From positions 1-42,907 of IMG/VR virus record IMGVR_UViG_3300028376_000459: a DNA stretch of 42,907 nucleotides. One strand, written 5' to 3'. This DNA comes from a virus. Shown piece after piece: positions 4,926 to 27,304 of the stretch. The position numbers were made by a program, and so were the translations under genes. The notes under the pieces were generated by a model. That model made no database searches, had not been told where the DNA came from, and worked only from the letters and a program-made list of their open reading frames with translations. The first letter of the stretch is position 1; every line of letters starts with the position of its first letter.

Positions 4926-6248
4926 TCAGTGGTCATCCACCCCCAGAAAGGAGGCCAGGCCTCCCGTCAATTGGGACCGGCTGATATTCGCCTCTTTGGC
5001 CAGTCGAGCCAGGGTCTGTACCGGGGGCTGCAAGTCGCTGATCATGGCGTAGGCCTGCAGCCCAGGACTAGCTCCCACGTATACGCCCCGATGCACCACG
5101 CTGCTGCCCCCTTTGAGGGTCCGATTCAGCTGGGTGAAACCCGCATCGAAGTAGTCCAGGCTGAGGTTGTTCATGTGGTCCTCGTCGCCCACGAACAGGC
5201 AGGCTCCCTTGGTCCCTTTGGTCAGGTCGACCTCGGCCAGCACGTTGCCGGTCAACTGCTCCCGGATCGCCGTGGAGATGTCGGCCGGCCCGCTGATGTT
5301 CTGCAAGCTGGCTGCACCCATCACGCAGATCCCATGATCGAGCAGCTGAGCCAATTCGCTGCGATCGAACGTGATCAAAGGACTGTGCACCGCTGCCAAC
5401 TGGTTGAACAGGTGCAGCAGCTGGCTGACCGTCTGGTTGGCCACGTTGTAGAGGTTCATCATGCCGGGCCGGTACAGCTGATTGATGCGAGCATTGTCGA
5501 TCAACAGCAGCGGACTGACCTTCAAGTCAATGAACCGCTGGAAAGCCGTCACCGCATTGCGGCAGACCTGTTGGCCCTCGGTGTGGGAGGGAATCGAAGC
5601 GATCACTCCGACCCGCGGAGGTTTGCCTTTGCTCTCCAGGTACTCCCGAGCGATCTGGATCAACCGCCCACTGGTCCCTGAGCCGGTGCCACCTCCGGTG
5701 CCCACACAGATCAGCCCGTAATCGACGTCGTTGCCCCAGGACCGCTGCAACAAGTCCCAGATCTCTTCGTCCCGCCCATCGATCGCCTGCTCGGCGAAGC
5801 GAGCGTCCTTCGCAGCTCCTCCAATATCGAGGGTGTGCCGCCCGATCTCCTCGGGAAGCCCCTGGAAATCGCTCTCAGCGGTGTTGAACAAGCCAACCCG
5901 GCGGTACCCCAGGTCCCAGAAACTCGAAGCGATGCGGGCTCCTCCTTGTCCGGAACCGAGGAACGCCATGTTGAACGCCACGTCGTAATCGAAGGCATCG
6001 TCCACGTTGACGTCCGCCGCGGCCTGGGGCTGAGCAGTGGGATTGAGGTTGGCTGCAATATCGCCCACCTGCACCGCTCCCGGAGAGCCCGTCGCCGGCC
6101 GGCTTGCTCCCGGGGCCGGCGGGGCGGGGGCACTGGCGACCGGCGGAGCCGGGGCTCCCGCAGCGGGCGGAGCCGGTACGTCGGCCGGCTTGGGCGTCCC
6201 TGCGGCATGCTTCAATGATTCATTCATCTTATCGTCTGGCGTACTCAT
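4926..6248 (-). CDS. Tubulin/FtsZ-family GTPase
   Basis: The product is 440 residues from the ATG at 6248 (AGAGG, 8 bases upstream). Residues 20-75 are a Pro/Ala-rich flexible extension. The GTPase core follows: nucleotide-binding FLGSGQGG near 96-103, the tubulin signature CVGTGGGTGSG at 181-191, and a T7-loop equivalent ITFDRSEL at 292-299. The Asp and Glu in the T7-loop match the catalytic acids that FtsZ and tubulin insert into the neighbouring subunit's nucleotide. Polymerising GTPase activity is therefore expected. Known phage relatives include PhuZ, which forms a spindle that positions the replicating phage DNA, and plasmid or phage TubZ. The overall pattern looks nearer to FtsZ-like proteins than to PhuZ. 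The long disordered head is unusual, since flexible tails are normally C-terminal. The exact role (DNA centring, virion transport or interference with host division) is inference. Confidence 0.9.
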   Translation of the reverse strand: MSTPDDKMNESLKHAAGTPKPADVPAPPAAGAPAPPVASAPAPPAPGASRPATGSPGAVQVGDIAANLNPTAQPQAAADVNVDDAFDYDVAFNMAFLGSGQGGARIASSFWDLGYRRVGLFNTAESDFQGLPEEIGRHTLDIGGAAKDARFAEQAIDGRDEEIWDLLQRSWGNDVDYGLICVGTGGGTGSGTSGRLIQIAREYLESKGKPPRVGVIASIPSHTEGQQVCRNAVTAFQRFIDLKVSPLLLIDNARINQLYRPGMMNLYNVANQTVSQLLHLFNQLAAVHSPLITFDRSELAQLLDHGICVMGAASLQNISGPADISTAIREQLTGNVLAEVDLTKGTKGACLFVGDEDHMNNLSLDYFDAGFTQLNRTLKGGSSVVHRGVYVGASPGLQAYAMISDLQPPVQTLARLAKEANISRSQLTGGLASFLGVDDH

Positions 6249-6321
6249 GCCTTTACCTCTGGCGTTGGTAGGAAACAGCTTGGGGCCAAACTCTCCGCAG
6301 TGGCGTAGACGGCCCATCGAA

Positions 6322-6927
6322 TTACCAAGAAATAGAGTCCAAGAATTGACTCAAACGCTCGTCGCTTTCTCCCTGCGTCCAGGCTCGCACCTCTTGGTTG
6401 GTCAGAGCGAGCCGACGAGGGAATAGTACGAGGTGCTCATTGTATCGGTTGACATAGCATTCACGAACCTCCTCCAGGTAGGAACGATCGCGAGTCGAAC
6501 CGGTCCAGCTCTCCAGAACCTGCAGATCCTCCTCCTCAGTAGCCTCCACCGAGACCAACATCGAAGCGACAGCCGTCCAGATGTCGACAAAGGGAGCAAT
6601 GGTGAGCCCAGAGATCACCACCGAGGTTTCGTCAAACTGATCGATGAACTCCCGAGGTCCAGGATAAGGTACCTCGTAGAAGCGAGGCAGCTGCGTGGCC
6701 ACCACTTGGCAGTCGTTCTGCAGGCACAAGCAATCGTGGATGTGCTGCACCTCGATGTTCTGCCGGTTGTGGCGAAAGAACATCTCGCCGTCACGGATCT
6801 TCAGGTCCTGATCAGGCCAGCAGATCGACCACCCTCGATCCGCGATTTTCCCTGCCACGACATTGAGCCAAGCCCCTGGGGTGCCGGAGACAACGATATT
6901 GTGCGGACTTATGGGCTGATGGGACAT
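6322..6927 (-). CDS. Possible P-loop protein in a glycan cluster
   Basis: The product is 201 residues. It starts with a beta strand and glycine turn (NIVVSGTPGAWLNVVAGKIA) resembling the start of sulfotransferase or nucleotide-kinase P-loop folds, but the GK[ST] of a true Walker A is absent. Sulfotransferases often lack the standard form, so a sulfotransferase-like role is possible. The middle contains VVISGLTIAPFVDIWTAVAS, and the end is helical and charged. Its start overlaps the 3' end of the GT4-like gene by 19 bases, tying it to the glycosyltransferase island. The function remains open. Confidence 0.5.
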   Translation of the reverse strand: MSHQPISPHNIVVSGTPGAWLNVVAGKIADRGWSICWPDQDLKIRDGEMFFRHNRQNIEVQHIHDCLCLQNDCQVVATQLPRFYEVPYPGPREFIDQFDETSVVISGLTIAPFVDIWTAVASMLVSVEATEEEDLQVLESWTGSTRDRSYLEEVRECYVNRYNEHLVLFPRRLALTNQEVRAWTQGESDERLSQFLDSISW

Positions 6928-8000
6928 TCGTCGACGATCTCATTGGTCAGGTAACGTTGGAAAGACTGTTGCTTGCGAGGCAACACCTGGGAGGCCTGCA
7001 CCTGCTGGTTCTTGAGGGTCACGTGCGGACGATGCAGGGTCCGCGAGAGCACGTCCTTAACGTCCTGCAAGTTAACATCGGCCACCGGGTAATCGTAGCC
7101 TGCCAACTGGCAGGGAATCAGGTTTCCCGTTTGGTTCTGCTGGACGTGGGCCTCTACCGGAGAGATGTCATGGCAGATCAGGGGCACGGTCGACGAAGCA
7201 AGGAGAGCCAACAGGGATCCGTAGTAATGCCGCGTGCTGGCCAGGTACACCCAGTCGTGGTCTCGAGCCATGCTGATCAGCGAGTAATAGGGCACGCCTC
7301 GATGGACCTGTACCCGTCCACTGTACCGCCGCTGCAGCTGATGAAGCTCGCGGCGGTACATCCGGCATACCGAACTCTCCAGCACGATCGTGATCTGTAG
7401 CTCCGGTTGCTCTTGCAGGAGCTGGTCAAAGACCGTCACGACGCCGGCTCCCAGATCTCGAATGGCAAACCGAGGGAACATCACCAGCAGCCGGCGAGTG
7501 GTCTCATCGACCAGACCGTACTTGGGGACCAGCAACTGGTCAGCCAAGGCCAAATCGACCCAAGAGGAACTCGCCGAACAGGAGTGCAAGTTATAGCGAT
7601 CCTGCACCCACTGATGCATGGCCTTGCTGAGACAGATCGCCCGGTCGGTCTGATCGAGAAAGGCCTCCCAGTCCCGGGACCAGTTGCCCCAGTTGGGAAA
7701 GGACAGGCTGCGGCAGTGCCGGCGGACCCCGGCTCCCGCTGCCAAGCGAGCATGATGCAGAGCCTGTTGATCCGGGGTAAACCAGCAGAGGTGAGTTGCT
7801 TGGTACGCCCAGCGGTAGATCGTCCCTCGGCGAGCCCGGGCCACGCGATGATCCCAGACCGGATGAATCCCGCTCTCGATCCTCTGGCTGGAGAGGAAAT
7901 CGACCTCCACCCCCAACCGCACCATCCAGTCAGCGAACTGCACCGCAGTCAGAGCGACCTCGTTGCGGACATAAGGAGCGAAAATTCCAACCCTGAGCAT
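6909..8000 (-). CDS. GT-B fold glycosyltransferase (GT4-like)
   Basis: The product is 363 residues with ATG at 8000 and SD GAGGA. The N-terminal half has the Rossmann start of GT-B enzymes (MLRVGIFAPYVRNEV) and a region with FLDQTDRAICLSKAMHQWV typical of the segment where GT4 proteins list acceptor-side helices. The C-terminal half shows the donor-domain pattern: RLLVMFPRF, LQITIVLESS, VPYYSLISMARDHDWVYLAS, then YYGSLLALLASSTVPLICHD, the region that binds the sugar nucleotide. Transfer of a sugar from a nucleotide donor is therefore likely. The acceptor is unknown and could be phage DNA, capsid or tail protein, or host surface glycan. Confidence 0.65.
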   Translation of the reverse strand: MLRVGIFAPYVRNEVALTAVQFADWMVRLGVEVDFLSSQRIESGIHPVWDHRVARARRGTIYRWAYQATHLCWFTPDQQALHHARLAAGAGVRRHCRSLSFPNWGNWSRDWEAFLDQTDRAICLSKAMHQWVQDRYNLHSCSASSSWVDLALADQLLVPKYGLVDETTRRLLVMFPRFAIRDLGAGVVTVFDQLLQEQPELQITIVLESSVCRMYRRELHQLQRRYSGRVQVHRGVPYYSLISMARDHDWVYLASTRHYYGSLLALLASSTVPLICHDISPVEAHVQQNQTGNLIPCQLAGYDYPVADVNLQDVKDVLSRTLHRPHVTLKNQQVQASQVLPRKQQSFQRYLTNEIVDECPISP

Positions 8001-8023
8001 GTTGTCCTCGTGAAAACGTAGTT

Positions 8024-8722
8024 CTATCCATGTCCGTGCGGCACGAAGTCAAAGAACGGGGAAGCACTCCGATGACCCGGGACATAACCATAACGCAGAC
8101 CGAGCCTCCAGGCCGTGTAATTGAAGCTCAGCTGGTCCCTTAGACTGTACTTTTCGAGCTGCTCCCACCAAAGCTCGTTGAAGGCAATCACCTCCTCCTG
8201 CCTCTCGCGGATCACGCAAGCGGTCTCCGCCAGCCCGTGAAACGGTGAGTATCCTTCGAGCTGGTAGCGATTGATCTGCCGCTGCATCAGCTGGGGGTTG
8301 TCTTTCCGCAGCCGCCGGCAAGCCTGCAGCTCCTGATAGACGCAAGTCCGGTCCGGATGCTTGAAGGCCGCCAACACCTCCTGATGCATCAGCGGCTGGA
8401 CCAAATCGGCTCCCAGTGGTCGGGCTTTGATCTTCTGCGACCCGTCGACCCAGACCGAATAGGTCGTATCGGTAACCAGATGGCTGTGCAGCTTGTGCCA
8501 ACGGGCGGTTCGCCGGGAACAAAGGGGATGCCGCCACCGCAGCGGATGCAGCTCCCAAGAGACCGTCGTATGTCGACTCTGGAACCGCTCGAGCGACTGC
8601 ACCGCATCGGTGAAGAGCACGTAGCGGACATCCTCCTCCGGAACCAGCGGCGAGGCCAGCAAAGTGGAACGGACCTTGTCGTATTTGCCGGTCACGCAGC
8701 TGTAGACGGTCGTATCGGTCAT
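8024..8722 (-). CDS. DUF616-like glycosyltransferase
   Basis: The product is 232 residues from the ATG at 8722, overlapping the upstream GT2 stop as ATGA. The order of motifs fits the DUF616 (TOD1/MUCI70-like) glycosyltransferase family: an N-terminal strand and YxxVTGxYD-like start (VYSCVTGKYDKV), VRYVLFTDAV, a metal-site-like YSVWVDGSQKI, then FKHPDRTCVYQELQACRRL, and near the end SLRDQLSFNYTAWRLG. Length is close to the family core. It lies between GT2 and GT4 genes, so the three probably act on one glycan. The substrate cannot be read from sequence. Confidence 0.7.
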   Translation of the reverse strand: MTDTTVYSCVTGKYDKVRSTLLASPLVPEEDVRYVLFTDAVQSLERFQSRHTTVSWELHPLRWRHPLCSRRTARWHKLHSHLVTDTTYSVWVDGSQKIKARPLGADLVQPLMHQEVLAAFKHPDRTCVYQELQACRRLRKDNPQLMQRQINRYQLEGYSPFHGLAETACVIRERQEEVIAFNELWWEQLEKYSLRDQLSFNYTAWRLGLRYGYVPGHRSASPFFDFVPHGHG

Positions 8723-9513
8723 CGCTTTCGGTACCAGTTCCCTCGTTTGTAACGATTCCCGCGGGAAACCGCTCGATAGTGAAAAATGAAGCTACTCAAG
8801 GCCACTGCCGAGTGTTGTCCTTGCTTCTGCCAACGAGCCTGCAGCTCATCCTCGTTGAGGGTCATCGTTGGCGTCGGATTTCGCTTGCCACGTCTGGTAT
8901 GGGTGTTCAGAGGTCGATAGTAATGCTGATGATCAAACATCCCCTTCCGCCAAGCCTGCATGCTAGCGATCTGGAAGAAGCCGTTGATATTGCTCTCGAT
9001 CACGTGCCCCAGTCGCTCCGCGTACAAGGTCTCGGCGACCCGCTGGAGTTGTTCTGGCTGACCACTGAGCTGGTAGTTCGGCACGTACCGCTCGACCTCC
9101 TGAGCCCCGCCGGCGGTGGTCCCCGGAGCATTGGAGACCGGCCCGGCCATGGCGTACCCGTTGGTCAGGGCGTGCAGCAGGCCAGCATGCCAGCGATCCG
9201 AAGGGAAGATGATATCGTTATTGCTGGCAATCACATAATCGAGATCGAGCTCGTAGGCCCGAGCCAGCCCCGCATTCCAGCTACGAGTCAGTCCGCCCTT
9301 TTTGCCAAAATGGATACATTCGAGCCCCTGTCCCTCGTCTCGAGCCATTTTCCGGTAGTGGGCCTCCCACTGCTGCCAGTCGCTGGTCGCGTCATCGACC
9401 AGTAAGGCCACCCCGCCTGGCGTGGTTCGCCAGAAGGACCGCAGGGCTTCGGTGGTGTACTCGTGAAAATTCCCCGCCTGATAAGTCGGGCAGATGTAAC
9501 CGATTTTGACCAT
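8719..9513 (-). CDS. Family 2 glycosyltransferase (GT-A fold)
   Basis: The product is 264 residues. The start (IGYICPTYQAG) is the usual GT2 first strand. VALLVDDATSD gives the nucleotide-binding acid, and YVIASNNDIIFPSD supplies the DxD-like metal site (NNDI) common in GT2 enzymes. A possible acceptor-side acid lies near LNEDELQARWQKQG. It would transfer a sugar from a nucleotide donor with inversion. The gene begins 13 bases after the portal stop with only a weak SD, so translation may depend on reinitiation. It opens the three-gene glycosyltransferase run. Confidence 0.8.
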   Translation of the reverse strand: MVKIGYICPTYQAGNFHEYTTEALRSFWRTTPGGVALLVDDATSDWQQWEAHYRKMARDEGQGLECIHFGKKGGLTRSWNAGLARAYELDLDYVIASNNDIIFPSDRWHAGLLHALTNGYAMAGPVSNAPGTTAGGAQEVERYVPNYQLSGQPEQLQRVAETLYAERLGHVIESNINGFFQIASMQAWRKGMFDHQHYYRPLNTHTRRGKRNPTPTMTLNEDELQARWQKQGQHSAVALSSFIFHYRAVSRGNRYKRGNWYRKR

Positions 9514-9526
9514 TGCACGCCTGGGT

Positions 9527-12430
9527 TTACATCAAGGAGCCGGACTGCATCTGCTGCATGGCTGCCCCGCCGGCCTGCGAACGCACCTGCTGGCGGATAT
9601 CATCCATGGCGGATCGCGTGGCCGAATGTAGCACCGGATGGCTCTGCTTGAGTTCTCGCAGTTGGCTGTCCTTGACGCCCTCGGGGAGCCCCAGCAGTTG
9701 CTGAGCCAGGCTCTGAGCCGCGGACTGCAGCTCCTCGGGGGTGATCAAGGAGTTGGGGCCCATCGATTGGATGTACTCGGTGACAGGCATGTTGCCTGCC
9801 CCCATCGCCGACTGAGCGTCCGGGCCAGGCAGATTGCCGCCAGCCGCGGCTCCGCCAGCAGCTCCTCCTGCCGCAGGATCGCCACCCCCGGCCGCAGCCT
9901 GTCCTTGGGTTGCCGGGTTGATCCCCTTGGCGATCTCGGCCGCAAATCCCGCTTGCTCCATCTCCTCTTGGTTGCGAGCGGCGATCTCCTGTTCGATACG
10001 AGCCTCCTCGGCCAGCGACTGCTGTTCGCTCTCCCAGTCGAAGCCCAGAGCTCCCAGGCCTGAAGTGCCCGAGAGGCGTTGAGCCATCATCAGCTGCAGG
10101 GCCGCCATTTGCTTCTGCACGTCGTCAGCGATCGTGACCGGCTTGAGTGAAGCATCGACCCGTTCCCAAGACATCACGCGACTGAGCGTCTCACAGATCC
10201 ACTGCAGAGCGTGGTTGGCGTCACTGACCAACTGCCGGTGGGTGCTCTCAAAGAGCCGTAGGGCCGCTGGAGCGGCCTGCGTCGAGAGGTTGCCATTGTA
10301 GAACTCGACCGGCACCCCGGACTCGTTGAGCAGCGTATTGAGGCCTTGGGTGATCAGCTCGGTAGGAGCCAGCTGACTGGCGTCTCCGCCGAGCATCTGG
10401 TACTGCACCGGAAAGGGGAGCGTTTGCCACGCGGCCGGATCCCGTCGCCGCTTGTTGATCATGTGGCGGACTTGAGCCCGGAAATCACCCCCGGAATAGA
10501 TCGACATGGGATCCTGTGTTGGCATCCCGCCCACACTGCCGCCGCTGCGGGCCTCCGGAGTGATCAACCGGAAGGGGATCACGTAGTCCATGGCGATCGC
10601 TTCGTTGTAGCGACGCAGCACCTGAACGTACCAGATCTGGCGGAAGTTGACCAAGCTCCGCGGCAGACCCCAACCCATGTTGCGGATCCCCGCAAGAGTC
10701 TGCTCCTTCATGTGGTAGATGGCATCCTTGTGGAAGCGAAACAGCTTGTCGTACTTGATCGCCTCGAGAACCTGCTTGCTGGCCCGTTCCAGGTGGAACA
10801 AGTTCCCCTCGCGGATCATCCGCTTGTAGTCTTCCGGGATCCGCCACAGGTAGGCGACCTCGCCGGTATAGAGGTCCGGCAGCAACTCAATCTCATGAGG
10901 GCTCCACCGCTTGAGGATCACATGGTCGGCTTCCTCACGGGGCTTGTCGATCAGCTTCCAGGGCCCTCGCCAGCCCGTGGTCGGACAGGTGGCGATGAAC
11001 TCGAAATCACCGTTGAACTCAAAGTTGAAGTTGTCATACACAACCTTCAGCGGGAACAGGTCGCCGGTCTTGGGGCACATCAAGAAGCGGCGAAACGGCA
11101 CCAACAGGCTGGCGAAGGCATTTCCGTAGCAGTTCGAAGTCAGTACAGCCTGATCCACGACGAACGTATGGGTCTCCATTTCGACACAACAGAACACCTC
11201 GTCGACGATGCCGGTCTCCGTAACGCCGCGAATGCCGATGTACTTACCGTAATTGGAATCTGGGTTCCAGTTCTCTTCGAACTTCTCTCTGTGCTTGGAC
11301 AGCAAGATGTCTTCTGGCTGCATGAACTGTTTCAACAGCGTCATGAAATGGATAGTGCTCTCGTAGATACCGCCATCGCTGTAGTTACCGTAAGCACTCA
11401 GATCAGTGATACGTTCTTGTGCCCGAATAGGTCCGGCACACATCCCAATCCGTGGTAATTGTTCTTCGATTGCTTCCAGCGTCGCTTTGGAGATCTGCGT
11501 TAGCATTGCACAGCCGTATGTGTCGACCGTGCCATCTGCGGCTAAGAAACCGCAAAGGAAGCCATACCAATAAGAGGCACTTGCCGAATTCTCCGGTAGC
11601 GACTTGTATGTTGCAGGTAGCCCGTAAAGAATTGTTCGACCTTCGTGAACCTTAGGTTCGTTGGCAGAGTGACCCTCGAAATGCTTCAGCATTTCTTGGT
11701 CTTTATCCCCGTAGAAGTATGCCGCAGCCATCGTGGTGCGGCTTTCATCCTGGTTGTATAGCGAACCGTCCCCGAAGACAAATCCGTGGCGGATCCCTTC
11801 ACGGTAGTCGTCGTTCTTCTCAGGACGCGGAGCCACAGTACGCTTCAGTTTGTGTCCCTTTATCAAGGACTTAGTGGGTAGAGTCACTTCCTTGCCCGAG
11901 CAATTAAGCACGGGCCACTCGTGATCAGGGGTCGCAAGAATTGTGCGTCCGTCTGAAAATTCAACCTCTAGCAGCTCCTGGCGGCCAAACGATTTGAACT
12001 CCGCCGGTCGGTAAATTCCGTCTTTTGACAGCACTTCAACTGTCTTACCTGCCAAGTCCCGGAGCTTGAACACGCCGTCCCTGGTGGTCGTCTTCACGTC
12101 ACCGTGGAAGCACAGCCTGTCCCGCATCATCAGACCCAGGAACGACAGCACGTCCAGGTCTTTTTTCAAGTAGTCCTTGTACTTGTTTTTCTCGTCGTCA
12201 CCAGCATCGCCGCCCAGTTCCACTTCAGTGATGAAGTAGCTGACGATCCGCTCCATCGCCATCCGGTAGGTGCCCATCCGCATCCAGATCTGCTCCGACC
12301 ACCAGAGAGCCGTCCGCATCGTGGTCGGCATCTGCTGGGTGGCCAGATCATTGAAAGGATCGGCGAATCCCTGGTCTCCGCTGGTACGAACCCCCTGACT
12401 CAGATAGGGGTTGTTCGGCGATAGTGACAT
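9527..12430 (-). CDS. Portal protein precursor interrupted by an intein
   Basis: A precursor of 967 residues with ATG at 12430 and SD AGAGGA. Residues 1-106 and 434-967 join to a portal of about 640 residues. Evidence for portal: the helical start (WWSEQIWMRMGTYRMAMERI), CYGNAFASLLVPFRR, RWSPHEIELLPDLYTGEV, GIRNMGWGLPRSLVNF and a long helical region with YNEAIAMDYVIPFRLITPEA. The C-terminal 150 residues are Gln/Ala/Gly-rich with a repetitive Gly-Ala stretch (846-866). The portal forms the ring at one capsid vertex through which DNA enters and leaves, and to which terminase and tail attach. The spliced junction would read DRL-CYGNAF. Two CPxTG motifs (452, 482) flank a beta segment after the junction. 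Downstream come glycosyltransferases, upstream likely virion genes. Terminase and capsid genes are not in the window. Confidence 0.75.
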   Translation of the reverse strand: MSLSPNNPYLSQGVRTSGDQGFADPFNDLATQQMPTTMRTALWWSEQIWMRMGTYRMAMERIVSYFITEVELGGDAGDDEKNKYKDYLKKDLDVLSFLGLMMRDRLCFHGDVKTTTRDGVFKLRDLAGKTVEVLSKDGIYRPAEFKSFGRQELLEVEFSDGRTILATPDHEWPVLNCSGKEVTLPTKSLIKGHKLKRTVAPRPEKNDDYREGIRHGFVFGDGSLYNQDESRTTMAAAYFYGDKDQEMLKHFEGHSANEPKVHEGRTILYGLPATYKSLPENSASASYWYGFLCGFLAADGTVDTYGCAMLTQISKATLEAIEEQLPRIGMCAGPIRAQERITDLSAYGNYSDGGIYESTIHFMTLLKQFMQPEDILLSKHREKFEENWNPDSNYGKYIGIRGVTETGIVDEVFCCVEMETHTFVVDQAVLTSNCYGNAFASLLVPFRRFLMCPKTGDLFPLKVVYDNFNFEFNGDFEFIATCPTTGWRGPWKLIDKPREEADHVILKRWSPHEIELLPDLYTGEVAYLWRIPEDYKRMIREGNLFHLERASKQVLEAIKYDKLFRFHKDAIYHMKEQTLAGIRNMGWGLPRSLVNFRQIWYVQVLRRYNEAIAMDYVIPFRLITPEARSGGSVGGMPTQDPMSIYSGGDFRAQVRHMINKRRRDPAAWQTLPFPVQYQMLGGDASQLAPTELITQGLNTLLNESGVPVEFYNGNLSTQAAPAALRLFESTHRQLVSDANHALQWICETLSRVMSWERVDASLKPVTIADDVQKQMAALQLMMAQRLSGTSGLGALGFDWESEQQSLAEEARIEQEIAARNQEEMEQAGFAAEIAKGINPATQGQAAAGGGDPAAGGAAGGAAAGGNLPGPDAQSAMGAGNMPVTEYIQSMGPNSLITPEELQSAAQSLAQQLLGLPEGVKDSQLRELKQSHPVLHSATRSAMDDIRQQVRSQAGGAAMQQMQSGSLM
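11132..12112 (-). mobile_element. Intein with LAGLIDADG-type homing endonuclease
   Basis: Residues 107-433 of the portal precursor. The first residue is Cys (CFHGDVKTTTRDG, splicing block A). Block B is GRTILATPDHEWPVL with the TxxH motif. Two dodecapeptide endonuclease motifs follow: GIRHGFVFGDGSLYN and WYGFLCGFLAADGTVD, each with the catalytic Asp. Block F/G reads VFCCVEMETHTFVVDQ and ends AVLTSN, followed by extein Cys434. The terminal Asn and +1 Cys needed for cyclisation are present, while the usual penultimate His is Ser. Base composition differs from the portal: two 60-base lines inside have 29 and 32 G/C, against 42 in a portal line, which suggests later acquisition. The element should be mobile between portal genes. 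Confidence 0.92.
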
Positions 12431-23604: not shown

Positions 23605-25223
23605 TGCACCGTTTCCAAATGCTCGGCAACCAGTTCGTCGTAGGGTCGATCCAATTGGTACCGCCGCTTGATGTTCAGGGCGTCGCGGATGCGATCACAG
23701 ACCTCCTCGTTCTCCTGAATCATTTGCCCCACTTCCTGGAAAGGCAAATACTCATCCTTGCCCATCCCGATCGCTCGGAAGTTGGCCAGACACTCGATAT
23801 CTGCCTGTGGTGACCGGCAGGTAATGGTCAGGCCCCGTTGCTGAAGCCGTTCCTTGTAGATCCCGTCCGCCTCATTGAGGAGCGTACACAGGGACCAGTT
23901 CCAATCCCACAGAAAACGGTCCTGCGGCACCCCGTTCTCATCGTCATCGACCCACCACAGGAAACGAGTCTTGATCGACCGTCCCGTAGGTCCGAAGGAG
24001 TTCTTGGAGCAGGTCAGCCGAATCCCGACCCCCTCGAACTGAGCGTTCTTGAACCGACGTCGCCACACACTGTTGTGGATCTCGAACGACTCGTGGAAAT
24101 TGAAAGACTCCCCGCCCAGCGTGTACTGCCGGGTGTTACCCATGTCGTCCGCCTTCTCCTTGAGGTGGTTGACCACCAGCAGGGTGAAGGGCCAGTTCTC
24201 GAACTGCTTCTTGATCCCGGACAGGTAGATCTTATTCTTGAGAGCCTCCACCGGATGCGACCGTCCGGCATTCCCCTTGTCCATGATCTTGTCCTGTACC
24301 TCCTCCGAGGAGCTCCCTGCCAAGCTGTCGATACAGAAACAGCAGGGAATCGTCTTGCCCGGGCCCGGATCGTTCTTGGTGCCGATCAAACTCTTCTGCA
24401 TCTGCTTGAGATAATGCGTCAGAATCTGCTGCATCTGCTCGGTCGAGTTGGCCCGGTTGGAGATGATCGGCATGTAATCATGAGGCACCCGCATGATGTC
24501 ACAGGCGAATGCTCCATCGAATTTGTCCTCAGTGTCGATGTGAACCGGGACCCCGTCATTCTCATGGAACCAGCGGAAAAACTCGTAAGAGAGGGCAGAC
24601 TTACAGGACCCCCAGCTCCCCGCCAACATCAGCACGCTGGAAAGCGGAAAGACGTCATTGGCGATCGCGAACTCAAACGCCAGAGCCGGCACGGGTATAC
24701 CGATCGCCAACTGATCGAGCTCCTCCCGGGACCCGAACACCCTATCGGCTCCGAACCGATCCCGAGCCGAGCTGACCAGGCCCTGCATCAAAGACACCCG
24801 GGACTTGCCGCTATTGGCTGCCGACCAGCGTTCTCGCACTGTCGACTGGCCCTTCTTGGTCAGCTTCCGGCCGTCCTCCAGTTTGACCTTCCGCTTGGCG
24901 GGTTTCTTGTCGGGGGTGGACACTTTGTCCGGACCGGCTGCCGTGGCTGGCTTGCTGGTCTTCTTGCTGGCCGGCTTGCTGGCCGGCTTGCTGGTCTTCT
25001 TGCTGGCCGGCTTGCTGGTCTTCTTGCTGGCCGGCTTGCTGGTCTTCTTGCTGGTCTTCTTCGTGACCTGATTGGTCGCCGGAGGCGACCCCGCGGGCTG
25101 CTTCGACCGGCGGGGTACTTTTCGCGGCGGCGGGGGATCCATCGCCTGGGCTAGCAGGTCATCGTCACCTGTATCCAGCGTTTCGTCCTTGTTCGCTTTA
25201 TCATTCAACGCGGTAACTCCCAT
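23601..25223 (-). CDS. RecA-like recombinase with lysine-rich head
   Basis: The product is 540 residues. Residues 52-125 are a repeated Lys/Thr/Ser/Pro/Ala segment (KKTSKPAS units) joined to a RecA core. Walker A is GSWGSCKS at 202-209, VHIDTEDKF carries the activating Glu near 232, Walker B is CCFCIDSLAG near 294-302, and LLVVNHLKEK with TLGGESFNF covers the region before the DNA-binding loops. It should form filaments on ssDNA and catalyse strand exchange like T4 UvsX. In Walker A the last Gly of GxxxxGK is Cys. The ATG at 25223 touches the U-tract of a terminator and has no SD. A TTG five codons later has GGGAG upstream and may be used instead. It is followed by a coupled unknown gene. Confidence 0.85.
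   Translation of the reverse strand: MGVTALNDKANKDETLDTGDDDLLAQAMDPPPPRKVPRRSKQPAGSPPATNQVTKKTSKKTSKPASKKTSKPASKKTSKPASKPASKKTSKPATAAGPDKVSTPDKKPAKRKVKLEDGRKLTKKGQSTVRERWSAANSGKSRVSLMQGLVSSARDRFGADRVFGSREELDQLAIGIPVPALAFEFAIANDVFPLSSVLMLAGSWGSCKSALSYEFFRWFHENDGVPVHIDTEDKFDGAFACDIMRVPHDYMPIISNRANSTEQMQQILTHYLKQMQKSLIGTKNDPGPGKTIPCCFCIDSLAGSSSEEVQDKIMDKGNAGRSHPVEALKNKIYLSGIKKQFENWPFTLLVVNHLKEKADDMGNTRQYTLGGESFNFHESFEIHNSVWRRRFKNAQFEGVGIRLTCSKNSFGPTGRSIKTRFLWWVDDDENGVPQDRFLWDWNWSLCTLLNEADGIYKERLQQRGLTITCRSPQADIECLANFRAIGMGKDEYLPFQEVGQMIQENEEVCDRIRDALNIKRRYQLDRPYDELVAEHLETVQ
24946..25063 (-). repeat. 24-bp coding repeat in the recombinase head
   Basis: Nearly identical 24-base units (plus-strand CTTGCTGGTCTTCTTGCTGG core) encode KKTSKPAS-type octapeptides. 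The repeats stay in frame and are coding, not CRISPR. Copy number could vary by slippage. Confidence 0.85.
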
Positions 25224-25261
25224 AAAAAAGGCGGGGCCGGAGCAATCCCCCGACCCCGCCT
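25224..25261 (-). terminator. Rho-independent terminator touching recA ATG
   Basis: On the minus strand a 12-bp stem with one G-U pair (25250-25261 with 25229-25240, GC-rich) is followed by six U residues (25224-25229), and then immediately by the ATG of the recombinase (25223-25221). It lies 18 bases after the ssDNA-binding protein stop and should make recombinase expression depend on read-through. Confidence 0.85.
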
Positions 25262-25279
25262 AAACCTCAGTGACACAAA

Positions 25280-27304
25280 TTACGACTTCCGCCGGGTCCG
25301 CTTCTTTGCGGTGCCTTTGGTGGTCTTCTTGCCTGCCGTTTTGGAGGACTTCGACTGCTTGGCCGACTTAGCCTGCTTGCTGGACTTCTTCGCTGACTTG
25401 GCGGGCTTCTTCGCCGACTTCGCCGACTTCGCCGACTTGGTCTGCTTACTGGGCTTCTTCGCCGACTTCGCCGACTTGGCCTGCTTGCTGGTCCGCTTCT
25501 TACTGCGGGCCAGAGCCTTCGCCTGCGACAAACTCTCATCCAACTTGGCATCGATGTCCGAGGTATCGGCTTCGTCGTCGAAATCATCCGACGCTTCCAC
25601 TTCTTCCTCGTTCATTTCTCCCTCGTCGAACTCCTCTTCGTCGCCTTCAGCTTCGATCTCGCCATCGTCGTCGAATTCTTCCCCCTCCTCGTCGTCATCG
25701 ACAACCAGGTCCTGGGCTTCTTCGTCGCCTTCTTCCTCGAAATCGTCACCTTCCTCGTCGAAGTCGTCGCCTTCTTCGTCGTACTCCTCTTCGTCGCCTT
25801 CTTCGTCGTACTCCTCATCGCCCTCTTCATCGAAGTCGTCACCTTCCTCGTCGCCTTCCTCGTCGTACTCCTCATCGCCTTCTTCGTCGTACTCCTCATC
25901 GCCTTCTTCGTCGAAATCCTCGTCGAATTCCGCTTCCTCCTCGGGGCCAGCCTCCTCATCGAAGGCATCGACGATATCGGACGCCGATTGGCCTTCTTCT
26001 TCGTCTTCGACGGTTTCCGGCTTGTTGCCGGCAACGCTCGTCCGGTTGCCGAGAATCCCCTTCACGGAGTCGAACTCCAAGAACTCGGGGCTGGACATCC
26101 AGCAAAGTTCCAGCAGGTCGGGCACCGCCTTGAAGGCCTTGGCGATCAGCACGCAGCGTTCTTCGATCGTGGGCTGGTGCAACAAGAACGAATCCGCCGG
26201 ATCCGTCTTGGAATCCCGCCAGAAGAACAAATGCTTGTTGAAAACGTTGTCGGTCTGCTCCGGCGACATGGTGGCCCGGACGGGCTTGCCATCCAGACCC
26301 GCGATCGCCTTGGAAACCGCCGCGGCGTAGGTGGTCACCGTGGTTTCCTGCTGACCTTCCACGTAGGTGGAGTTCTTGGTGATCTTCATCACGTCCGGAT
26401 CGAAGACCGTGAAGAACACCCCGCCTTCCACCGTGTTGGTCTGCGGGTTGTAGCGGCCCGTGGGGTCCCCGTACTTGAAGCAGACCGCCGGATTGGCGAC
26501 CTCGTCTCCCGACCAGTCTTCCTTGCGGGCATTGCACAGCTTGAGGATGCTGTTCCCGGCGGAGATCGTCAACGGCACCACGATCAACGGATCATCCGGA
26601 GCGTCACCGAGCATCACCCCGTTGCGGGGATGGTCCTCGACCACCTTCTTCCCGTCCTTGGTGTACTCGATGTGCTCCCGCTGCAGGTTCAACCGCGGTC
26701 CGTTCTCGGCCACCGAGGCGACCCCGAAAAACTGCTTCTTGAATCCCGGCATGGCGGGCATCTTCCGGATCCCCGGCATCAGCTCGTTCCACTGGGAATT
26801 CCAGGTGCCGGTGCGGCCGAACTTGCCGGTGTCCCGGGCCTTCTTCGCGGCGACGTACAGCCGCACGTAGGGCAGATCCCAGAACTCGTAGCCTTCGACC
26901 TTCTGGGCCTTCGAGCGGGCGATGATGTAGCTGCACCGTTCGATGTCGTCATCGTCGTTCACGAACTTGTAGCCGGAATCCTTGCTGATCCCCACGAAGT
27001 TGGCGGTGTAGGCCGGCTCGGAAATGGACATCCCACCCAGGCCCGCATAATCGTCCGCCGACAGCCGTCCCTGCAGGAGGTTGCTGTCCGGATTTTCTGG
27101 GTCTAGCATCGGCCAGAACCGGAGGACCAGCTTGCCCTCCTGGGAGATCTTAGGGAAGAACAACCGTACGTTCTGGATGCCGGGGTTGAGGAAGTAGTTG
27201 CCGCGTGGCACCAGTCCCCCCTGATCATCCGCCTCCGAATCCAGATTCCGGTTGACGACGCTTTCACGGGAGCGGGGCTTGAGGGAACGTTGTTTACGTG
27301 ACAT
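25280..27304 (-). CDS. Probable ssDNA-binding protein with acidic-basic tail
   Basis: The product is 674 residues. The first 430 residues are folded, with strand-rich segments (VRLFFPKISQEGKLVLRFWP, DDPLIVVPLTISAGNSILKL, CFKYGDPTGRY, GGVFFTVFDPDVM) that fit a gp32/gp2.5-type OB-fold ssDNA-binding protein. The assignment rests mainly on this, on the acidic tail and on its place between dTMP kinase and recombinase. Residues about 440-590 are extremely acidic, built from DEEGDEEYDEEG-like repeats. Residues 600-674 are the opposite, a Lys/Ser/Ala stretch (KQAKSAKSAKKPSKQTKSAK) like histone H1. Acidic tails on ssDNA-binding proteins recruit replication partners, but the added basic tail is unusual. 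The start is the ATG at 27304 after a GAAAGG site. A strong terminator follows. Confidence 0.5.
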   Translation of the reverse strand: MSRKQRSLKPRSRESVVNRNLDSEADDQGGLVPRGNYFLNPGIQNVRLFFPKISQEGKLVLRFWPMLDPENPDSNLLQGRLSADDYAGLGGMSISEPAYTANFVGISKDSGYKFVNDDDDIERCSYIIARSKAQKVEGYEFWDLPYVRLYVAAKKARDTGKFGRTGTWNSQWNELMPGIRKMPAMPGFKKQFFGVASVAENGPRLNLQREHIEYTKDGKKVVEDHPRNGVMLGDAPDDPLIVVPLTISAGNSILKLCNARKEDWSGDEVANPAVCFKYGDPTGRYNPQTNTVEGGVFFTVFDPDVMKITKNSTYVEGQQETTVTTYAAAVSKAIAGLDGKPVRATMSPEQTDNVFNKHLFFWRDSKTDPADSFLLHQPTIEERCVLIAKAFKAVPDLLELCWMSSPEFLEFDSVKGILGNRTSVAGNKPETVEDEEEGQSASDIVDAFDEEAGPEEEAEFDEDFDEEGDEEYDEEGDEEYDEEGDEEGDDFDEEGDEEYDEEGDEEEYDEEGDDFDEEGDDFEEEGDEEAQDLVVDDDEEGEEFDDDGEIEAEGDEEEFDEGEMNEEEVEASDDFDDEADTSDIDAKLDESLSQAKALARSKKRTSKQAKSAKSAKKPSKQTKSAKSAKSAKKPAKSAKKSSKQAKSAKQSKSSKTAGKKTTKGTAKKRTRRKS
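25590..25960 (-). repeat. Acidic low-complexity coding repeats
   Basis: Repeated short units on the plus strand (TCGTCGCCTTCTTCGTCGTA and variants) encode Asp/Glu/Gly/Tyr tracts of the ssDNA-binding candidate. The repeats are irregular and remain in frame. Large indels in multiples of three would be tolerated. Confidence 0.8.

Follow-up and report, generated by a model that had tools for sequence, protein, structure and literature searches.

A divergent phage tubulin placed on the TubZ branch, with a conserved N-terminal extension, in an IMG/VR virus record

Two kinds of phage tubulin are chiefly known: PhuZ, from nucleus-forming phages, and TubZ, from plasmid-like phages. The DNA analysed here (the window, a virus record of 42,907 bases from IMG/VR) raises the question of where a tubulin belongs that carries a long Pro/Ala-rich segment ahead of its core, and what such a protein would do for its phage. 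A minus-strand open reading frame of 440 aa had been read, from the sequence alone, as a tubulin/FtsZ homologue with intact catalytic motifs, belonging to a lineage distinct from PhuZ and possibly to a class outside both known groups.

The tubulin core and its kinship

The tubulin core of the window protein is real. The Pfam tubulin/FtsZ GTPase domain PF00091 matches at E 8.5e-10, with 39.7 bits against a curated cut-off of 33. The nearest solved structures found by sequence in the PDB are TubZ/RepX proteins (E 2.3e-9), which reach E 6e-16 with the family profile, followed by CetZ and then FtsZ. Structure prediction, proposed earlier as a check on the identification, returned the tubulin fold as a whole: the AlphaFold core aligns with TubZ 4ei7 over 322 residues (Z 24.5, rmsd 4.6), and TubZ is the top Foldseek match of the model (E 2e-14). 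The GTPase domain is modelled with confidence; the C-terminal domain and tail are modelled poorly from a shallow alignment, with many C-terminal-domain residues below pLDDT 50. Fold alone does not discriminate among relatives, because CetZ2 is tied with TubZ 4ei7 at Z 23.9; the structure-comparison matches listed include these two and no PhuZ chains, and nothing is concluded from that absence.

The T1, T4, T6 and T7 motifs (T1, T4 and T7 in Table 1) are invariant or nearly so in an alignment of 14 distinct members, the set behind all counts of extensions, motifs and C-terminal peptides given here. T4 does not vary, nor do the T7 residues T316, F317, D318 and E321, so the GTPase signature and the T7 acids are as intact as the sequence-only reading had stated. 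Its likening of the T7 loop to that of FtsZ did not hold, since FDRSEL is closer to the TubZ form FD[SA]SEF than to the FtsZ form VDFADV. The tubulin gene lies between replication genes and large genes presumably for the virion, in a cassette with a putative portal-like gene, which could point to a non-motile scaffold or particle-assembly factor using the tubulin fold for structure only. The invariance of the catalytic T7 acids and nucleotide loops across the family argues against such a role, which we consider highly improbable.

Kinship was assessed by profile, tree and motif. In hhalign comparisons, the family matches TubZ at E 3.9e-34 over 326 columns spanning both domains. The corresponding values are 1.8e-16 for CetZ, 3.4e-10 for FtsZ and 8.6e-7 over 128 columns for PhuZ, a margin that is partly unequal because CetZ and part of FtsZ were represented by fragments, whereas PhuZ was compared as full proteins. 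Both sequence marks of TubZ, a T4 of GGGTG[ST]G and a T7 loop of FDxSEF type, are present in the family. A tree of 34 tubulins recovers the family as one clade (99/100), lying outside a separate PhuZ clade (100/100). Family and TubZ group together in the best tree at a weak 67/87, and constrained groupings with PhuZ, FtsZ or CetZ were not rejected. From the profile match and the TubZ-like T7 loop, we assign the family to the TubZ branch as a divergent clade, with a weak link in the tree, and not as a lone new class; the full-length match to TubZ is far stronger than those to FtsZ, CetZ or PhuZ, contrary to the expected class outside PhuZ and TubZ.

The predicted separation from PhuZ was confirmed. 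The PhuZ HMM (PHROG 4733) gives no match to the window protein at E<=1, against 4.6e-118 for the phiKZ PhuZ control; two relatives score 0.02 (L022) and 0.23 (L014). No PHROGs family matches the window protein at all. A PhuZ with a mis-called start is rejected on HMM, tree and motif, and the start appears to have been mis-called in the other direction.

Table 1. Features of the tubulin gene and its neighbours in the window
Feature	Position	Strand	Basis or remark
Small downstream gene, 103 aa	4528..4839	-	Helix-helix-beta3 model; close relatives only
Phage tubulin gene, long form (463 aa), probable start	4926..6317	-	Open reading frame; conserved in-frame N-terminal motif; PF00091
Short form as first called (440 aa, ATG 6248)	4926..6248	-	Good ribosome-binding site
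C-terminal peptide LASFLGVDD	4932..4958	-	Conserved; A-x-F/Y-LGV in 14/14 distinct members
T7 loop TFDRSE, catalytic-type acids D318 and E321 (463-aa numbering)	5355..5372	-	TubZ-type FDxSEF
T4 tubulin signature GGGTGSG	5676..5696	-	Invariant across the family
T1 nucleotide-binding loop FLGSGQGG	5940..5963	-	Alignments
Pro/Ala-rich disordered linker	6075..6197	-	Partly coded by a 24-bp tandem repeat at 6116-6176
Short predicted helix ExMxxSLxxAxG in the tail	6204..6239	-	Conserved in alignment; AF2 helix 27-38, low confidence
N-terminal motif GEFGPKLF (GExGx[RK]xF)	6273..6296	-	In the window, L005/6, L009, L012/13, L020, L021 and L022
Upstream gene, 201 aa, motif GTPGAW	6322..6927	-	Conserved in 15/18 loci compared
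Three glycosyltransferase-like genes (GT4-like, TOD1/MUCI70-like, GT2-like)	6909..9513	-	Conserved cassette

The two ends of the protein

An extension of 58-131 residues precedes the core in all 14 distinct members. In the window protein, Pro and Ala make up 39% of the extension against 12% of the core, and in every other member, too, the extension is richer in these residues than the core. AlphaFold assigns the segment low confidence and draws one short helix in it, in keeping with the disordered Pro/Ala-rich extension described from the sequence alone. The motifs at the termini are conserved, and the linker between them varies in length and sequence; the 24-bp tandem repeat can explain the variable length. 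When the window, the loci of the relatives and two whole contigs were searched in six frames, GExGx[RK]xF turned up solely in tubulin frames. On the family tree, its presence in 7 of the 14 distinct members takes four changes, and repeated loss is one reading of this patchy pattern.

The position of this motif bears on the start codon. An ATG at 6317, four bases past the stop of the upstream gene, lies in frame ahead of the called ATG at 6248 and adds 23 residues, which carry GExGx[RK]xF. Because this conserved motif lies upstream of the called start, the call at 6248 is probably too late and ATG 6317 is the probable beginning of the extension. ATG 6248 nevertheless outdoes 97.7% of internal ATGs in anti-Shine-Dalgarno energy (-7.1), and of the two starts the downstream one has the stronger ribosome-binding site, both in the window and in all two-start relatives. 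Long and short tubulin forms may therefore both be made. Two in-frame starts also occur in L006, L009 and L020-L022, the upstream one where the preceding gene ends or close by, and the downstream one with the stronger Shine-Dalgarno sequence.

The tail had been described as N-terminal, unlike the usual C-terminal tails of such proteins. The N-terminal tail is real, but it is not the only conserved end, as the C-terminal peptide is kept throughout the family. This peptide, which we take to be vaguely like the FtsZ C-terminal peptide, could favour interference with host division, in which the FtsZ-like core or the xFLGV terminus would compete with host FtsZ or its partners. A weak match to the FtsZ model TIGR00065 (E 1e-6) points the same way. 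However, its 28.3 bits compare with an equivalog cut-off of 295, the T7 loop is TubZ-like, and a simple inhibitor would need neither intact hydrolysis motifs nor a fixed gene order; we regard this role as improbable.

Relatives, gene neighbourhood and carrier phages

The family comprises 21 further IMG/VR relatives. Their identity over the protein is 53-80%, and their contigs reach 224 kb. No relative was found at E<=0.01 among 50,697 records of isolate phages, and a plasmid search gave one weak TubZ match. Two pattern-based scans of 84,980 GTDB bacterial and archaeal genomes, with limited reach in distance, found no host or prophage copy. The family was not described in the literature searched, a search that did not include PMC12625630, on chimallin/PhuZ diversity.

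Gene order around the tubulin is conserved, even in relatives of just 53-58% identity. It runs from a ~640-aa protein through three glycosyltransferase-like genes and the 201-aa protein to the tubulin, followed by a small gene, not the same one in every clade. The glycan island noted earlier beside the tubulin is thus a standing part of the cassette; its three glycosyltransferase-like genes are fixed in nearly all relatives, and the TOD1/MUCI70-type gene matches PF04765 at E 2e-22. The ~640-aa protein is perhaps a portal, with PHROG 21 at E 0.07 and nothing in the PDB. In the window it is interrupted by an intein of ~327 residues (11132-12112, minus strand, inside the open reading frame 9527-12430), which starts CFHGD, finishes LTSN before C and contains a LAGLIDADG-like GFLAADG. 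L018 carries an intein at the same site; the ~640-aa proteins of other relatives are uninterrupted in length. The window also encodes replication genes (DNA polymerase, primase, DnaB-like helicase and SbcCD). Several overlapping tandem repeats with units of 9-57 bp lie at 24951-25931, within long minus-strand open reading frames.

The kinship with TubZ makes a TubZRC-type partition motor, keeping an extrachromosomal plasmid-like phage in dividing cells, an obvious candidate, and phage-borne TubZ partition is known (Oliva 2012, as cited in PMC7824862). The neighbourhood speaks against it. The gene directly upstream of the tubulin encodes 187-226 aa (67-83 aa in L020-22), and no recognised TubR-like HTH gene, expected at ~100 aa, was found in that position; the 201-aa protein of the window matches no Pfam or NCBIfam family. 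The 103-aa downstream protein, suggested earlier as a possible partner of the tubulin, was considered as a TubR and rejected. Its model is folded, but it has no PDB match, recognisable fold or HTH-like match, and no orthologue was found in L012/13 and L020-22. No non-coding tandem array resembling tubC iterons was found around the tubulin, at 4-13 kb of the window, and the large phages carry the tubulin gene in a densely packed operon. Because TubR proteins may have diverged past recognition, partition is somewhat less improbable than the other alternatives, though still unlikely.

The carriers are large phages with their own transcription genes. RNA polymerase beta was found in all six contigs of at least 157 kb (157-224 kb), and tubulin and multisubunit RNA polymerase are reported to co-occur in jumbo phages (PMC7824862). 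In the L003 record (G001, 112695-117161), beta shares one frame with the N-terminal portion of beta', which includes the DFDGD catalytic motif. A single beta/beta' frame of ~1480-1512 codons also occurs in G002, G004, G006 and G007, and G005 has two neighbouring frames; the shared frame is an unusual arrangement for a phage RNA polymerase. A weak phrog_2 match in G001, followed up as a terminase, falls on a PhoH gene, and the large terminase was not identified.

Large phages carrying both RNA polymerase beta and a tubulin could suggest a spindle working like PhuZ and centring a phage nucleus, built here from an unrecognised shell protein. The chimallin HMM (PHROG 4795) found nothing in five contigs of 157-224 kb, which are linear and may be incomplete, although its phiKZ control scored E 1.8e-232. 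This result and the separation from PhuZ by both HMM and tree argue against a nuclear spindle, to which we give a low probability, much as for division interference.

Proposed activity and comparison with known systems

We favour, at a probability of about 0.62, a TubZ-branch tubulin that acts as a GTP-dependent cytomotive filament and positions phage DNA or particles in the absence of a nucleus, tethered by its terminal peptides. The observations behind this reading are the fold, the GTPase and T7 motifs, the kinship with TubZ, the terminal motifs and the gene order. The invariant nucleotide loops and T7 acids point to GTP-driven head-to-tail polymerisation as the most likely activity of the family. 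In a large-phage lineage with an RNA polymerase beta subunit and no recognisable nuclear shell, GTP would be bound in the T1-T6 pocket, and the hydrolysis site would be completed by D318 and E321 in the T7 loop of the adjoining subunit. Head-to-tail growth would then yield dynamic filaments, whose task in the infected cell could be to place or segregate phage DNA as it replicates, or to move particles during assembly. By analogy with the cargoes of PhuZ and TubZ (PMC10299810, PMC13282480), phage DNA or particles are the likely cargo. Terminal peptides that stay conserved while the linker varies freely suggest docking: cargo or adaptors would bind to the disordered arm, with its short motifs, and to the C-terminal peptide. 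With no nucleus and no TubR found, the adaptor must differ from those of the PhuZ and TubZ systems.

Phage tubulins of the TubZ branch are already known; the unusual N-terminal arm and a phage lineage apparently without a nucleus set this variant apart. That a lineage of large phages conserves a TubZ-branch tubulin, along with RNA polymerase beta but no chimallin that could be detected, suggests a repeated uptake of tubulin transport by phages, and that such transport needs no phage nucleus. The arm, in turn, would offer defined peptides for finding cargo. A bolder and more doubtful extension is that the family forms a second kind of phage spindle, of the TubZ branch and without a nucleus, in which an N-terminal docking arm replaces the C-terminal tail and possibly two forms are made.

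Among known systems, TubZ/RepX of Bacillus plasmids (4ei7, 2xka) shares the two-domain fold, the T4 GGGTG[ST]G, the T7 FDxSEF and the full-length profile match. TubZ-like proteins on Lysinibacillus, Pontibacillus and Alicyclobacillus plasmids are grouped with TubZ/RepX as the closest known. Unlike TubZ, the family has the long N-terminal extension with conserved motifs, an FLGV C-terminus and a clade of its own, and its carriers are phages with RNA polymerase beta in which no TubR gene was found. FtsZ (TIGR00065) and CetZ have the tubulin/FtsZ GTPase domain in common with the family, with weaker profile matches than TubZ. PhuZ (phiKZ, 201phi2-1, RAY; PHROG 4733) is likewise a tubulin encoded by large phages that have a phage RNA polymerase, but it has ~320 aa, no extension and a T4 of GGASGS type, and forms a separate clade; the family's contigs, in turn, yielded no chimallin. 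Bacillus phage G gp138 (FtsZ-like, PHROG 17961) is also a TubZ-like tubulin of a giant phage. It differs in having no long N-terminal extension and a distant sequence; PHROG 17961 matches L014 and L022 weakly and the window protein not at all. The best viral structural match is BFVD A0A6J5RW92, an 'FtsZ' of an uncultured Caudovirales phage (452 aa, E 1e-18), which is similar to the window protein in length and, at 24% identity, likened to it by fold only.
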